Source: Bacteroidaceae bacterium
Lineage (GTDB): Bacteria > Bacteroidota > Bacteroidia > Bacteroidales > Bacteroidaceae
Length of the DNA: 64,000 nt
Reading direction: 5' to 3'
Assembly: GCA_017383485.1 (NCBI GenBank)
Contig: JAFNXM010000005.1
Span: 1 to 64,000 of the forward strand
Positions 4,398 through 50,484 of this stretch are shown one piece after another. Below the pieces are notes generated by a model. The model saw only the letters and a list, made by a program, of their open reading frames with translations. It searched no databases and was not told the origin of the DNA. How positions within the stretch are numbered: the stretch's first letter is position 1; each line of letters begins with the position of its first letter. A program made the translations under genes and the position numbers.

Positions 4398-4940
4398 AGG
4401 GGAGGGTTGAAAGAATTTTCCACGTATCGCGCGTATCTCGTGTATTTTACTTTACCACGTATGATTAGTTTTTACCACGAATCAACACGAATTGGCACGA
4501 ATTTTTTATAATCAACAGATTACACAGATTAAACGGTTTTATTATGCATGGCATTGTATAATGCTATCGCCAATACAATAGACAAAAACAGATGCGGTGC
4601 CGAGAAATCAGTTTAAATTCTGTTTAAATCACACGAAGGCAGTGATTTAATCGCATCATGTGCATAAAATCTGTGTAATCAGTGTAATCTGTTGATTATA
4701 AAAAAATCGTGGAGGTATTTAGACGCCCCAATGGGATGTCTCTATGTGCGTTATTTGACGTACCCCCTCCGAGCCTTACGGCTCTCGTCCCCCTGACTCA
4801 GGTGGACATTGCGGAATGTGGTTGACTAATAAAAATTCGTGCCGATTCGTGTCAATTCGTGGTAAAAACTAAAAATGTATGTGATACGCGCGATACGTGG
4901 AGAATCCTCTCCTCTCTCAACCCTCAACTTTCAACCCTCC
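4398..4940. repeat. Nested imperfect palindrome, about 540 bp
   Basis: Three pairs of inverted arms are nested. Outer arms 4398-4440 and 4882-4940 share ccacgtatcgcgcgtatc. Middle arms 4461-4508 and 4831-4876 share the cacgaattggcacgaat type of sequence. Inner arms 4509-4531 and 4669-4700 share ataatcaacagattacac. No ORF of note lies inside. The right side is interrupted between 4711 and 4830 by a separate two-hairpin repeat. The order of arms indicates one folded or duplicated-inverted unit, not scattered repeats. Confidence 0.85.
4761..4822. repeat. Two-hairpin dispersed repeat, copy 1
   Basis: The segment holds two adjacent hairpins, gagcc-ttac-ggctc and gtcccc-ctgactcag-gtggac. A clearly related sequence occurs in reverse orientation at 24035-24086. 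It lies inside the right half of the nested palindrome and does not look coding. Confidence 0.7.
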
Positions 4941-4967: not shown

Positions 4968-5072
4968 TGTTTTTTGAAAAAGTAGTAACCTTTTTTCGAC
5001 GAGCCGTCGCCTTTTTTCTCTAATCCGTAACCTTTTTTTCTCTCTGAGCCGTCGCCTTTTCGTCGGGTGTTT
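4968..5072. repeat. T-rich CGAGG minisatellite (family 1), copy 1
   Basis: Repeated blocks of cctttttt followed by gacgagccgtcgcc recur about every 20-25 bases. The same family occurs at 16349-16435, 25465-25555, 37131-37235, 47318-47392, 55628-55732 and 63605-63702, and inside prmC at 9415-9624. Its role is unknown. Confidence 0.75.
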
Positions 5073-5204
5073 GGGGGATGTGAATTAGGGGCGTTTGTTT
5101 CGCTCACATTGGTGCTATTTCTAATTTTTTTGATACAAATCTCCTTGTTCATGGAAAAATATTTATCTTTGCCACGTCTTAGGACAAAATTTTATTGAAA
5201 AAGA

Positions 5205-5345
5205 GATGCTTCGCATTCGTTAAATCGCCAATTTAATCAACATACACGAAGCAAGAAAACGGTTCACCCAAAGTGGACTGCTTATTCTTGTGTGTATGAA
5301 AGTGTTTGGCGATACTTACGAATGGACAAGGATGGCAGTCCATTT
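5205..5345 (+). ncRNA. Rod-shaped structured RNA candidate, copy 1
   Basis: Nested complementary segments form a long rod: CATTCGT (5214) with ACGAATG (5318), ATCGCCAA (5224) with TTGGCGAT (5306), CATACAC (5241) with GTGTATG (5292), CAAGAA (5252) with TTCTTG (5285), and GTTCAC (5262) with GTGGAC (5273). A second copy at 50163-50330 on the minus strand keeps aaatcgccaatttaat and gtgtttggcgatac, but the other stems differ in sequence while still pairing. A Bacteroidetes -7 box TATCTTTG at 5164-5171 would start a transcript near 5178. The class is not recognised; 6S RNA or a Bacteroidales-specific motif are possibilities. Confidence 0.6.
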
Positions 5346-5622
5346 CTTATTGTCAAATTTCGCCGAACGACTGACACGGGGACCACTAATATCACACGCG
5401 TATGAATTCTTCGTAAATGTATTGCTTGAAAGCAGAGTTATGATACTCAATGCTATTTGTCAACCACAAAACAAAGGCGATTTTGTCGCAGTTCGTCCAA
5501 AAAATAGACGAAATAACACTTTTTGAGTATTAAATAACCTTAAAAATTAAGATAAATGCGATATAAATTGTATTTTTGCTCGTTATTAGCAAATTATAAC
5601 CAACCAAATAAAACATTAACCT

Positions 5623-8454
5623 ATGAAAAAGTTTAATCTTATCAAACTTTTGCTGTTGGTGCTCGTGGCGCTCCCATTGAGCGGTCTGCGTGCACAACAA
5701 GTGCCCGTGTTGCCTATCGACGAGGCAGTGCGCTACGGCAAACTTGAAAACGGCTTGACTTACTACGTGCGCAGCAATGCGCTGCCCGAAGATCGTGTAC
5801 ACTTCTATATCGCACAAAAGGTGGGTGCGGTGCAAGAAGAGGACAACCAACGCGGTCTGGCTCACTTCCTGGAGCACATGTGCTTCAACGGTACTAAGCA
5901 TTTCCCTGGCGACCGCCTGGTGAAGTATTGCGAAAGCATCGGTGTGAAGTTTGGTCAAAACCTGAACGCTTATACTTCTACCGACGAAACTGTGTACAAT
6001 ATCGACGGTGTGCCCGTGAGCGACAGCAACATCGACTCTTGCCTCTATATCCTGCACGACTGGGCTAATGCGCTCTTGCTCGAAACAGATGATATCGACA
6101 AGGAACGTGGCGTGATCCACGAAGAATGGCGTCAACGCACCACTGGTATCATGCGCATCCTGGACCGCCAGTTGCCCAACATGTATCCTGGTTCTCGCTA
6201 TGGCTACCGTATGCCTATCGGTACAATGGAAGTGATCGACAACTTCGACCCACAAGTGTTGCGCGACTACTATCACAAGTGGTACCACACACAAAACCAA
6301 GCGATCATCGTGGTAGGTGATATCGACGCAGACAAGATGGTGGAACGCATCAAGGCTATCTTCTCGCCCATCAAGGCTCAGGAAAACCCTGCACCATACG
6401 AATTCTATCCCGTGCCCGACAACGACGAACCTATCTATATCGTAGACAAGGACAAGGAAGTGGCACAAGTGATGATGCAATTGGACTTCAAGCAAGAACC
6501 CATGCCCATGGAATTGCGCGGCACTCAGATGGAAATCGCGTATGGCTATATCAACAGCATCATTTGCAAGGTGGTGAACGCACGCCTCAATGAATTGGCG
6601 CTCAAGGGTGACTGCCCCTTCACACAAGCTGGCGTGGCATACGGCAACTACTGGGTGAGCAAGACTAAGAGCGCTCTGAGCGTGAGCATCATGCCTAAGT
6701 CTGGCAAGGATGTAGAAGCCCTGCAAGTGGTGATGCAAGAGTTGGAACGCGCTAAGCGTTTTGGCTTCACTGCAACAGAGGTATTGCGTGCGAAGGAAGA
6801 GTTTATCAGTTCGCTCGAAACACTCTACAACAACCGCGAAAAGCAAAAGCACAACTTCTATACTCAACAATACGTGCGCCACTTCCTCGAAGGCAATGCA
6901 ATTCCTGATTTGGAAACAGAATTCCAACTCTACAAGCTCTTTGCACAACAATTGCCAGTGGAAGCTATCAGCCAAGTTTTCCAACAATACGTAGCATCGA
7001 CTGACAAGAACTTCGTGCTCTTCGCTGCATATCCCGAAAAGGAAGGCCAAGCAGTACCTACTGTTGAACAAATGAAGGGTGCTGTCGAAGCGGCTAAGGC
7101 GGCTGAACTGACAGCATACGTGGACAATGTGAAGAACGAACCACTCGTGCCCGAACTTCCTGCTAAGGGTAAGATCGTGAAGGAAGCTAAGGCTGACTTT
7201 GGCTACACTTGCTGGACATTGAGCAACGGCGCTCGCGTATTCTTCAAGAAGACCGACTTCAACGAAAGCCAAATCCTGATGTCTGCTCAAAGCTTCGGTG
7301 GTAAGGGTTGGTTCAACGACAAAGACGTGGTGAACTTCGAATTGATGGATCAAGTGATCAACGCAACTGGTCTGGGCAACTTCACCACAACCGAATTGCA
7401 AAAGAAACTCGCTGGCAAGCAGGTGTCTTGCAGCGTATCTACAGGCAACGCTACTGAAAACTTGAGCGGTTCATCTACGCCTAAGGACTTGCGCACACTG
7501 TTCGAATTGATCTACCTCCGCTTCCAGGCTCCAGCCAACGACGTGGATACTTACAACACTATCATCGCAGGTCTGCGCACTCAGTTGGAAAACGTAGAAA
7601 AGTTGCCCCAAGCTGCATTCTCTGACTCACTCACCAAAACTGTATACGGCAATCACCCACGTGCCAACCGCATCAAGTTGGCAGACATCGACAAGGCTGA
7701 CTACGAAACTATCAAGCGTCTCTATAGCGAACGCTACAACGCTGGTGGCGACTTCGACTTCTACTTCACTGGTAACCTTGACGTAGATAGCCTCCGCCTC
7801 TTCGCAGAACAATACATCGCGCCTCTCAAGGCTGTGAAGAAACGCGAAGGATACAACAAGAAGTTCGAAATGGAACCATTGAAGGGTGTGCGCGACAATC
7901 ACTTCGTACGCAAGATGGAAACACCTCAGGCTACCTTCATCCAACTCTGGACTGGCGACCTGAAGTACACTGTGAAGAATGCTGCTATCGTGAAGGCTTT
8001 GGGTTCAATCCTGACCGAACGCTACCTGAAGAGCATCCGCGAAGACGGCGGTATGGCATACAGCGTAGGCGCTAGTGCTAACGCAAGCTTTGGCACAAAG
8101 GAATCTTACATGGTACAAATTTACTGCCCCGTGAAGCCTGCACTCAAGGACGAAGCATTGCGCCTGGTACGCCTTGACATCGACAAGATTGCTGCTGAAG
8201 GCGTGACTGCAGAAGAACTGGACAAGGTGAAGAAGTTTGAACTCAAATCATTCAATGACAAGCAACGTGAAAACGGCTACTGGCAAGGTTTGATCACTTC
8301 TAAGGTGAACTGGAACAAGGATACACAAAAGGACTACGAAAAGGCTATCCAAAGCCTCAGTTCTAAGGATGTTCAAAACTTTGTGAAGAACGTGTTGCTC
8401 AAGCAAAACAACTGCATCACCGTGTCTATGCTTCCCGAAGATATGACTGAATAA
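5623..8454 (+). CDS. Exported M16-family zinc protease (two-domain, pitrilysin-like)
   Basis: The 943-aa protein begins with a signal peptide (residues 1-25, LRAQQ). The inverted zinc motif HxxEH appears as HFLEH at residues 81-85, with the distal Glu expected in VIHEEW near residue 166. A second peptidase-like half begins about residue 520 (CWTLSNGARVFFKKTDFNESQI) and lacks the zinc motif, as is usual for the tandem M16 architecture. These enzymes degrade peptides in the periplasm. A -7 box TATTTTTG lies at 5571-5578, 45 bases before the start. The gene stands alone with its own terminator at 8507-8540. Confidence 0.93.
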   Translation: MKKFNLIKLLLLVLVALPLSGLRAQQVPVLPIDEAVRYGKLENGLTYYVRSNALPEDRVHFYIAQKVGAVQEEDNQRGLAHFLEHMCFNGTKHFPGDRLVKYCESIGVKFGQNLNAYTSTDETVYNIDGVPVSDSNIDSCLYILHDWANALLLETDDIDKERGVIHEEWRQRTTGIMRILDRQLPNMYPGSRYGYRMPIGTMEVIDNFDPQVLRDYYHKWYHTQNQAIIVVGDIDADKMVERIKAIFSPIKAQENPAPYEFYPVPDNDEPIYIVDKDKEVAQVMMQLDFKQEPMPMELRGTQMEIAYGYINSIICKVVNARLNELALKGDCPFTQAGVAYGNYWVSKTKSALSVSIMPKSGKDVEALQVVMQELERAKRFGFTATEVLRAKEEFISSLETLYNNREKQKHNFYTQQYVRHFLEGNAIPDLETEFQLYKLFAQQLPVEAISQVFQQYVASTDKNFVLFAAYPEKEGQAVPTVEQMKGAVEAAKAAELTAYVDNVKNEPLVPELPAKGKIVKEAKADFGYTCWTLSNGARVFFKKTDFNESQILMSAQSFGGKGWFNDKDVVNFELMDQVINATGLGNFTTTELQKKLAGKQVSCSVSTGNATENLSGSSTPKDLRTLFELIYLRFQAPANDVDTYNTIIAGLRTQLENVEKLPQAAFSDSLTKTVYGNHPRANRIKLADIDKADYETIKRLYSERYNAGGDFDFYFTGNLDVDSLRLFAEQYIAPLKAVKKREGYNKKFEMEPLKGVRDNHFVRKMETPQATFIQLWTGDLKYTVKNAAIVKALGSILTERYLKSIREDGGMAYSVGASANASFGTKESYMVQIYCPVKPALKDEALRLVRLDIDKIAAEGVTAEELDKVKKFELKSFNDKQRENGYWQGLITSKVNWNKDTQKDYEKAIQSLSSKDVQNFVKNVLLKQNNCITVSMLPEDMTE

Positions 8455-49423: not shown

Positions 49424-50101
49424 TTATTGCAAATTCTTGAGCAATTCTTTTGCATCTTTATGTCCTTGGTCAGCAGCTTTCTGTAGCCACTTTTTAGCTT
49501 TACCTATAAATTCTTCTCTTAGATACAAAGAGCCTAATTCATATTGTGCCTCTTTATGTCCTAGTTCTGCAGCTTGTTTTAGATGTTTTTCTGCTTCTTT
49601 GAAGTTATTTGTATTGAGATATGATATTCCCAAATTATATTGTTCTTGAATGGATGGCTGTGACTCTAATTCTTCTTTTGTAGAATTTTGTATGCTGGTA
49701 GGAACTTTGGGTTGATCTTCTATTAGCTTATTCTTAGTTGTTCTAAAAATAGTTCCATCTACGCTAACAGATCTCAAATTCTTATATTTTGCAGGGTATC
49801 CTGATACTATAATTTCTGTTTCAATGTCTAAATCTTTTATCTCATATTGAGGACTCACAATGACATCTGCATCACCATGCATTCTTAATGCTTCACTTAT
49901 AGCATTTTCTTTAGCAATATCAAGATTATAATCGTTGCTATAGTAAACATATTTGTACCTGATTTTTGTTTGCGCAATTTCTAAATCAGCTGTGACAGTT
50001 AAATCAACTTCTTTTGTGCTTGCTGTTTTTATACTTTCGTTGGTTACGCATGAACTAAAAATAAGGCATGCAAGTGGTACAATAATTAAAAACTTTTTCA
50101 T
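49424..50101 (-). CDS. Sel1-repeat lipoprotein
   Basis: The 225-aa protein has a lipobox (IFSSC, Cys18). Residues about 25-125 are a beta-rich region related to lipoproteins that contain ISEALRMHGDADVIV. Residues about 145-225 contain two Sel1-like repeats (AEKHLKQAAELGHKEAQYEL, AKKWLQKAADQGHKDAKELL). Sel1 domains mediate protein-protein contacts. A cell-envelope scaffold role is inferred. The gene is AT-rich. Copy 2 of the structured RNA lies upstream on the same strand. Confidence 0.8.
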   Translation of the reverse strand: MKKFLIIVPLACLIFSSCVTNESIKTASTKEVDLTVTADLEIAQTKIRYKYVYYSNDYNLDIAKENAISEALRMHGDADVIVSPQYEIKDLDIETEIIVSGYPAKYKNLRSVSVDGTIFRTTKNKLIEDQPKVPTSIQNSTKEELESQPSIQEQYNLGISYLNTNNFKEAEKHLKQAAELGHKEAQYELGSLYLREEFIGKAKKWLQKAADQGHKDAKELLKNLQ

Positions 50102-50484
50102 GATAGTATATAATTAAGGGGTAACAAATTAAATAGTCCAATTAGTACATGTGATTTTAGACAAAATAAAAAACGCGGACTTAAAACTACATCTACGTTT
50201 CCAGAGGTATCGCCAAACACCGTACGACCATAAATGAGTAAAAGCCCACGCTATCGCGTGAGCATTAACTTCTACCCTTGGTCACTTCATTAAATTGGCG
50301 ATTTTCTGAAAACAAAGATAAAGCTAACGCTTCTTATTTTATATGTCTTTACTTTTTTAATGCTTCATAGGCACTTTTTTGTTTAGACGGGTTATGAAAG
50401 TTTAAAAACTCTTTTGTATTGCAAATGTAGTATTTATTTTTGAAAAAGAATGATTTTTTGTAAATATCACGTCAACTCCAGAGT
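50102..50484. other. Intergenic region with structured RNA copy 2
   Basis: It is filled by the RNA candidate, its possible promoter near 50421 and a T-rich end. The region next to the Sel1 gene start shows no clear promoter. No ORF is supported. Confidence 0.6.
50163..50415 (-). ncRNA. Rod-shaped structured RNA candidate, copy 2
   Basis: Read on the minus strand, the same rod as at 5205-5345 forms: GTTTTC (50308) with GGAAAC (50197), ATCGCCAA (50295) with TTGGCGAT (50209), TGACCA-type GACCA (50279) with TGGTC (50226), GTAGAAG (50269) with CTTTTAC (50238), and GCTCACGC with GCGTGGGC as apical stem (50244-50263). The stems other than ATCGCCAA/TTGGCGAT differ from copy 1 but still pair. A -7 box TACATTTG on the minus strand (near 50421-50428) and a run of T after cgcg (50163-50182) bound a possible transcript of about 240 nt. 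Confidence 0.6.

Follow-up and report, generated by a model that had tools for sequence, protein, structure and literature searches.

The stretch of DNA analysed here, called the window, comprises the 64,000 nucleotides at positions 1 to 64,000 of contig JAFNXM010000005.1 from a Bacteroidaceae bacterium. It holds two copies of a sequence that a preliminary description had presented as a rod-shaped RNA with compensatory base changes, either 6S-like or unnamed. The locus raises the question whether this element is a free-standing RNA, the leader of an mRNA or a structure of the DNA, and what it would do in the cell.

Two copies of a structured RNA in the window

Copy 1 (5200-5345, plus strand) folds with −47.6 kcal/mol, compared with −29.5 for dinucleotide shuffles (z −4.89), and copy 2 (50335-50190, minus strand) with −56.6 kcal/mol, compared with −32.9 (z −6.80); in neither case was any of 200 shuffles as good, in line with the proposed rod. 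The two sequence blocks reported to be shared occur without mismatch only at the two copies within the window. When up to three mismatches are allowed, the first block is found 9 times in the window against 6.6 expected by chance and is not enriched; the joint two-block pattern occurs twice in the 1.68 Mb host genome and is absent from the reversed control. As described, copy 1 is preceded by a −7 box (Table 1), and no ORF of ≥80 aa overlaps either copy. The description did not mention that copy 2 ends 68 nt before the ATG (50101) of a gene on the same strand, or that the host genome has five copies.

The window was compared with Rfam 15 (4227 families). At the gathering threshold the only match was a tRNA, away from the element. 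At E values up to 10 both copies gave only unrelated chance matches far below threshold, none of them to 6S, and 33 loci of the class (including L004, which is copy 1 itself) gave no family over the element. Of the two identities first suggested, an unnamed RNA is the one that agrees with these searches. The 6S-like RNA was rejected on the missing Rfam match and on the leader position described below.

Table 1. Features of the two copies and their surroundings. Positions refer to the window; features of copy 2 are on the minus strand.
Feature	Position	Strand	Remarks
Copy 1, Bacteroidota −7 promoter box TATCTTTG	5164..5171	+	sequence and class-wide enrichment
Copy 1, basal stem P0, 5' side GACA	5183..5186	+	partner TGTC 5351-5354; P0 seen by eye
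Copy 1, entire structured element	5196..5348	+	covariance model match, 58.2 bits, E 7.3e-12
Copy 1, segment 1	5201..5209	+	weak here; first half (1:2) only −8.9 kcal/mol
Copy 1, core helix 5' strand ATCGCCAA	5224..5231	+	
Copy 1, segment 2	5247..5268	+	
Copy 1, segment 3	5272..5290	+	partner is 2 (rod) or 4 (terminator-like hairpin)
Copy 1, core helix 3' strand TTTGGCGAT	5305..5313	+	
Copy 1, segment 4	5331..5348	+	U-rich tail after it; half 2 (3:4) −34.7 kcal/mol
Copy 1, candidate pseudoknot partner of segment 4, GGGGACC	5378..5384	+	class-wide pairing test
Separate −7 box TATTTTTG of the M16 peptidase gene	5571..5578	+	
Exported insulinase-family (M16) peptidase gene, downstream of copy 1	5623..8454	+	
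Copy 2, −7 box TACATTTG	50422..50429	−	
Copy 2, minimal upstream ORF ATG AAG CAT TAA	50357..50368	−	class-wide frame test
Copy 2, conserved GACATA, 5' side of P0	50342..50347	−	
Copy 2, entire structured element	50170..50338	−	157.5 bits, E 1.5e-37; among the model's own 18 sequences
Copy 2, segment 1	50313..50332	−	
Copy 2, core helix 5' strand	50295..50302	−	
Copy 2, segment 2	50256..50281	−	
Copy 2, segment 3	50228..50251	−	
Copy 2, core helix 3' strand	50209..50217	−	
Copy 2, segment 4	50174..50197	−	
Copy 2, U-run and 3' side of P0 TTTTTTATTTTGTC	50160..50173	−	
Copy 2, pseudoknot partner of segment 4, TTGGACT	50135..50141	−	candidate by pairing
Exported lipoprotein-like protein gene led by copy 2, TPR/Sel1-type repeats	49424..50101	−	signal by eye

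Covariation of the rod

An alignment (A1) was made from 18 of 31 loci found with a sequence pattern, chosen by eye for alignable tips; the rod structure was taken from base-pair probabilities, and a covariance model (R1) was built on A1. On this alignment the rod has 62 cells in which both sides of a pair have changed, compared with 21.8 (sd 4.0) in shuffles and at most 17 in slid controls, which confirms the compensatory changes noted between the copies. Four of five covariation measures lay above every shuffle; the fifth, which counts further pair types, did not (91 of 500 shuffles reached its value). A1 had been gathered with a pattern that fixes the core, so the core is invariant within it. 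In a wider set the core partners change together (ATCTGGTAA/TTTACCAGA, AACTGGTAA/TATACCAGT, GTTTGGCG/CGCCAAAC). The two blocks are kept, as first stated, within close relatives; in more distant members both strands of the core helix change as well. With 92 distinct sense rows 1000 both-side-changed cells were counted against 247 in shuffles, in an alignment that was fitted to the rod and hence leans towards it. Most copies differ from each other through compensatory changes, and the element is an RNA under selection for structure. Beside the core helix, unpaired GAAA and GG...ACC are seen by eye in most rows, even with a changed core; such conserved unpaired nucleotides would be compatible with a riboswitch that binds a metabolite or ion.

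When the two strands are compared, the fold of the RNA strand is the better one in 168 of 175 rods and in 172 of 175 pairs of half-hairpins, which argues for an RNA element rather than a DNA palindrome.

Two mutually exclusive folds

Four segments of the element are complementary in series (1:2, 2:3 and 3:4), a U-run follows the last of them, and either half of the element alone forms a hairpin. This serial complementarity is new here. Duplex energies were compared with those of permuted partners in the 174 usable of 181 elements, and were on average −25.3 against −17.4 for 2:3 (z −36), −20.5 against −15.6 for 3:4 (z −25) and −18.6 against −13.6 for 1:2 (z −23). The control pairings gave z values of +2.0 (A-B'), −0.6 (A'-B), −0.5 (A-downstream), +0.1 (B-downstream) and −2.7 (A'-downstream). 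The z values are inflated by the relatedness of the elements, and less so with 45 representatives under 70% score identity, selected from 212 elements. For the 43 usable representatives they were −18 (2:3), −13 (1:2), −12 (3:4) and −19 (X-Y), with no excess in four controls (−0.9 to +1.2). The base of the rod, 1:4, was considered as a main stem and dropped as too weak (−10.4 against −9.6, z −5.1; representatives −2.7).

The alternative fold has 40 both-side-changed cells on A1 (14.7 shuffled, slid maximum 12) and 357 in the rod-fitted alignment (191 shuffled, maximum 231). Two mutually exclusive folds are both kept in evolution, as in an attenuator. The rod described earlier is real and corresponds to the 2:3 state; as an account of the whole structure it is incomplete, being one of the two folds.

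From its sequence, the state with 1:2 and 3:4 paired looks like a terminator. The 3:4 hairpin runs into the U-run at the 3' end; in 37 of 45 representatives 7 or more of 12 nt there are T, and the mean energy of the second half is −30.5 kcal/mol over 175 elements. The computed energy of the rod is a median of 12 kcal/mol below that of the two hairpins, the gap being 5 kcal/mol or less in only 16 of 175 elements; without the last 14 nt of the element the rod is still 10.6 kcal/mol lower. Because the rod is more stable, termination would need kinetic trapping, a particular folding order or a bound factor.

Position relative to promoters and genes

For 181 distinct elements, the 250 nt downstream were examined for the first ORF of ≥80 aa. 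It lies on the element's own strand in 149 cases and on the opposite strand in one; the remaining 31 elements have no ORF within 250 nt or lie at a contig edge. The median distance from the element to the next ORF is 61 nt. These figures speak against a free-standing RNA, as which the element had been introduced, for most copies. The sequence TAnnTTTG, which we take to be the Bacteroidota −7 box, is present 28-95 nt upstream in 113 of 179 elements, compared with 5 for the reversed sequence and a mean of 6.7 (maximum 14) for shuffles. Between element and gene a −7 box was found in 5 of 158 cases against 6.7 expected, i.e. none beyond chance, so the downstream genes appear to depend on the promoter of the leader. 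Most copies are very likely 5' leaders, each belonging to the gene that follows it in the same orientation. The arrangement of an attenuator, with a promoter upstream and a same-strand gene lacking its own, is found class-wide and is not seen at copy 1. On the upstream side, the closest ORF shares the element's strand in 112 of 166 cases and is on the other strand in 54.

The element leads unrelated, mostly exported proteins. A crude script, used in place of SignalP, classed 103 of 149 downstream proteins as signal-like; the counts were 41 of 166 for the closest genes upstream and 57 of 167 for genes further away (98 of 333 neighbours together). In 80 downstream proteins 58 Pfam families were matched, each in at most three members. 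The 31 loci from outside the order (30 from the same class, one from the same phylum) include about 11 with the look, by eye, of a SusC/RagA-type receptor 200-384 nt downstream; the protein of L297 was tested and confirmed as such a receptor, and the Chryseobacterium loci L171 and L173 are alike in look to this set. Lipoprotein-like and repeat-rich surface proteins are also led. Homologues of the gene at L015 are present in only 5 of 151 genomes of the family. In the 80-protein set a class A beta-lactamase (match to a MUN-family model) lies behind one leader, probably L057. The protein after the leader at L041 has weak DNA-methyltransferase matches and no signal by eye; the genes at L248 and L261 begin like it, an exception to the trend towards exported proteins.

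Copy 1 and its surroundings

Copy 2 is a full member of the class and copy 1 a diverged one. The 1:2 half of copy 1 is weaker than that of its complement strand (−18.3 kcal/mol), and its U-run is less pure. A generic terminator scan did not report its 3:4 hairpin, the loop of which exceeds the length that the scan allows. No ORF of ≥80 aa begins within 250 nt downstream; the M16 peptidase gene begins 274 nt on and, with a −7 box of its own, may have another leader besides copy 1. Leaders like copy 1 at L028 and L111 lie 75 and 55 nt before exported-looking proteins, and therefore copy 1 may have lost its gene or may act over a longer leader.

A short way upstream of copy 1, nested long inverted repeats form a palindrome-like block of about 500 bp (4402-4918) with a MITE-like look; the arms 4402-4448/4872-4918, 4465-4516/4821-4872 and 4496-4540/4667-4711 are 79-89% complementary. 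Four imperfect direct repeats of the TTTTTTCGACGAGCCGTCGCCTTTT type, spaced 21-24 nt, are present at 4970-5060.

Pseudoknot and short upstream ORF

Segment 4 can also pair with sequence after the U-run. The pairing value was 4.60 compared with 3.81 for permuted sequences (sd 0.058). The comparison of duplex energies with permuted partners gave z −10.9, and the signal is weaker in the representatives (z −3.4).

In a mostly Bacteroidales set, 228 ATGs lie upstream of the rod in 142 elements. An in-frame stop follows within four codons in 145 of these 228 in frame 0, against 42 and 79 in the other frames, and the short ORF takes 65 distinct forms. In the 129 elements with a stop within 8 codons, the stop is a median of 21 nt before the start of the model (IQR 17-23), i.e. 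ahead of segment 1 and not overlapping it. The bias holds in the representatives (20, 7 and 9 of 38 ATGs in frames 0, +1 and +2), and part of it may come from shared descent. No such bias was seen in the 31 loci outside the order (4, 2 and 8 of 18 ATGs), and the ORF was rejected as a universal part of the class on this result.

In seven loci that form a clade (L047, L048, L054, L092, L093, L250 and L263) the short ORF overlaps or abuts a local hairpin of the GCGTAT..ATACGC type, the 3' arm of which can alternatively pair with a GCGTAT-type sequence after the U-run (both by eye). This local hairpin is a possible second switch at the base of the rod.

Distribution of the class

R1 was searched at three levels, with the host counted at each: within the genus 30 of 41 genomes matched, within the order 68 of 198, and within the phylum 30 of 296. 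The covariance-model search envisaged at the outset thus yielded further homologs. Strict filters were used and few candidates were scored per genome, so these counts are probably low. Up to 14 matches were found in one genome (order search, strict filters), and Bacteroides stercorirosoris DSM 26884, a carrier that is in culture, has 7 R1 matches. A looser pattern was present in 55 of 301 genomes of the family, host included, and absent from the reversed control; the fixed-core pattern gave at least 118 stretches in GTDB genomes. Titles among the 80 matches listed include Prevotella, Bacteroides, Alistipes, Dysgonomonas, Leyella, Chryseobacterium, Tenacibaculum and an Ignavibacteria bin. There are a few pairs of copies on the same strand, 1-3 kb apart.

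The class appears to extend beyond Bacteroidota into a second phylum, Verrucomicrobiota if the Kiritimatiellae title of one bin (G819) is right. The phylum of that bin, with the bin itself counted, has matches in 9 of 145 genomes (best E 2.9e-11), and none of the places in these nine is among the matches listed in the search of the window's phylum. Elements of four of the nine genomes were read (L323 from the bin, and L350-L352); L350-L352 have GAAAATCGCCAG with TCTGGCGATACCTC or TCTGGCGATGCCTC, a near-identical core with a shared pair change of A to G and T to C. A record named Glaciecola amylolytica (L167, CP034120.1) was withdrawn as a case of cross-phylum spread. Its NCBI name is that of a gammaproteobacterium, and in the classification used here it falls in the window's own class; the name is probably wrong, since its 'class' search gave places and scores already present in the order and phylum searches of the window.

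The narrow form of the core pattern was found in no viral contig and the wider form in 12 of 2.9 million (IMG/VR; L235-L246). Copy 1 as query against plasmids gave only 22-nt matches in three Lactiplantibacillus plasmids (E 0.7), and the L009 query had no match in plasmids or phages.

A probable two-state leader and its alternatives

The element is probably a cis-acting two-state 5' leader RNA, most likely a transcription attenuator, as judged from sequence. Its position and direction relative to the gene, the promoter box, the covariation of both folds and the preference for the RNA strand are shown by the analysis and support this. Transcription would start at the Bacteroidota promoter, and segments 1, 2, 3 and 4 would be made in order, followed by the U-run and the gene. 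In one state 1:2 and 3:4 would form, and the U-run would be immediately preceded by the 3:4 hairpin, which would serve as an intrinsic terminator. The other state would have 2:3 paired, and the sequences between 1 and 2 and between 3 and 4 would zip into the long rod; segment 4 would then be free, RNA polymerase would continue into the gene, and the freed segment might pair with the short downstream sequence as a pseudoknot. In the mostly Bacteroidales set, a ribosome at the ORF of 1-4 codons that ends about 20 nt before the structure could bias the choice. Termination and read-through in the cell, a default state and the role of this ORF are what we infer.

An alternative is a leader that acts after transcription, the rod and pseudoknot binding a protein or small molecule or shielding the 5' end of the mRNA. 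The leader would then set translation or stability of mRNAs for exported proteins, with 3:4 serving refolding and not termination. The unpaired nucleotides that flank even a changed core, the greater stability of the rod, the pseudoknot partner that pairs above permuted sequences and the high share of signal-like proteins downstream as compared with neighbouring genes are consistent with this. However, 3:4 covaries and in most representatives ends directly at the U-run, for which control of stability or translation has no need, and we regard this alternative as fairly unlikely. Less probable again is an independent regulatory RNA, like 6S or an sRNA that acts by base pairing, with its 3' end at the U-run and a gene behind it by coincidence. 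The promoter box, strong fold and U-run would suit it, as would copy 1, which has no gene within 250 nt and a next gene with a −7 box of its own; the next gene's preference for the same strand (149:1, median distance 61 nt), the gap free of a second −7 box beyond chance, the missing Rfam 6S match and the downstream pairing partner argue against it.

A DNA element (a MITE, a REP-type palindrome, an integron-like recombination hairpin or an IS end) is very improbable. Multiple copies per genome, the long palindrome, the unrelated genes behind it, the few same-strand pairs of copies, the broad taxonomic spread and the share of upstream ORFs on the same strand would all be expected of a mobile sequence. 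Such elements would have no strand preference and a free orientation to genes, whereas the fold is better on one strand, promoter box and gene are at set places in one direction, and most copies differ by compensatory changes; in addition, one query gave no phage match and two gave no meaningful plasmid match. An integron cassette, considered for the pairs of copies on the same strand, was dropped: most elements have their own −7 box and a one-strand fold, and the nearest upstream ORF is often on the other strand.

Taken as a two-state leader, the element may be a portable class of RNA switch that brings numerous unrelated genes for surface and exported proteins in one cell under a single signal, and that either predates the split between Bacteroidota and the second phylum or was passed between them; we offer this tentatively. 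If true, the cell envelope would be served by an RNA-level regulon whose conserved unit is the leader and not the gene. Bacteroidota are dominant gut bacteria that break down glycans with extensive sets of surface proteins, and to our knowledge few of their cis-regulatory RNAs have been described. A multi-copy attenuator class absent from Rfam 15 would then be a large missing layer of control. The serial covariation of segments 1-2-3-4 is a good natural data set for RNA refolding.

Comparison with known systems

6S RNA is rod-like. The 6S-flavo (RF01685) and Bacteroidales-1 (RF01693) RNAs are structured RNAs of the same bacteria, and differ in that they gave no match at the thresholds used and that the element is an mRNA leader. 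Flavo-1 (RF01705) is likewise a multi-copy RNA motif of Bacteroidota, with a distinct model; one copy was seen at L137 (674-761), about 390 nt from the element and not overlapping it. According to PMC9723704, Flavo-1 matches are sense or antisense and without a clue to function.

The available parts of PMC8040213, PMC7366714, PMC9723704, PMC10994844 and PMC2864571 do not describe the class, and the element is not named in the literature searched, as far as its text was accessible. GUCCY-hairpin and Bacteroides-2, two motifs of Weinberg 2010, appear without an Rfam number in the table of that paper. Long 5' UTRs with short ORFs are reported for B. thetaiotaomicron in the available text of PMC7366714. 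HMP2_4205 (Fremin and Bhatt 2021, PMC8040213) is presented there, in one sentence of the accessible text, as a palindromic terminator candidate of 132 bp, mostly from Bacteroidetes and near TPR genes. By this description, it is possibly an earlier sighting of part of the element.

A very short leader ORF and alternative hairpins are shared with the tetQ leader of Bacteroides, a likeness by description only. In the tetQ leader of CTnDOT, a three-codon leader peptide and alternative hairpins bring about translational attenuation; the difference is that translation of one operon is controlled. With trp-type attenuators the element shares a promoter, a leader, the serial pairings 1:2, 2:3 and 3:4 and the U-run after 3:4, as well as, in the mostly Bacteroidales set, a short upstream ORF. 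The trp leader is a 1-2-3-4 attenuator with a leader ORF that controls one pathway, whereas the element precedes scores of unrelated, mostly exported genes. Its ORF of 1-4 codons, unlike that of trp, does not overlap segment 1 and lacks support outside the order, and its 2:3 state is extended to a 170-nt rod with an additional downstream pseudoknot.
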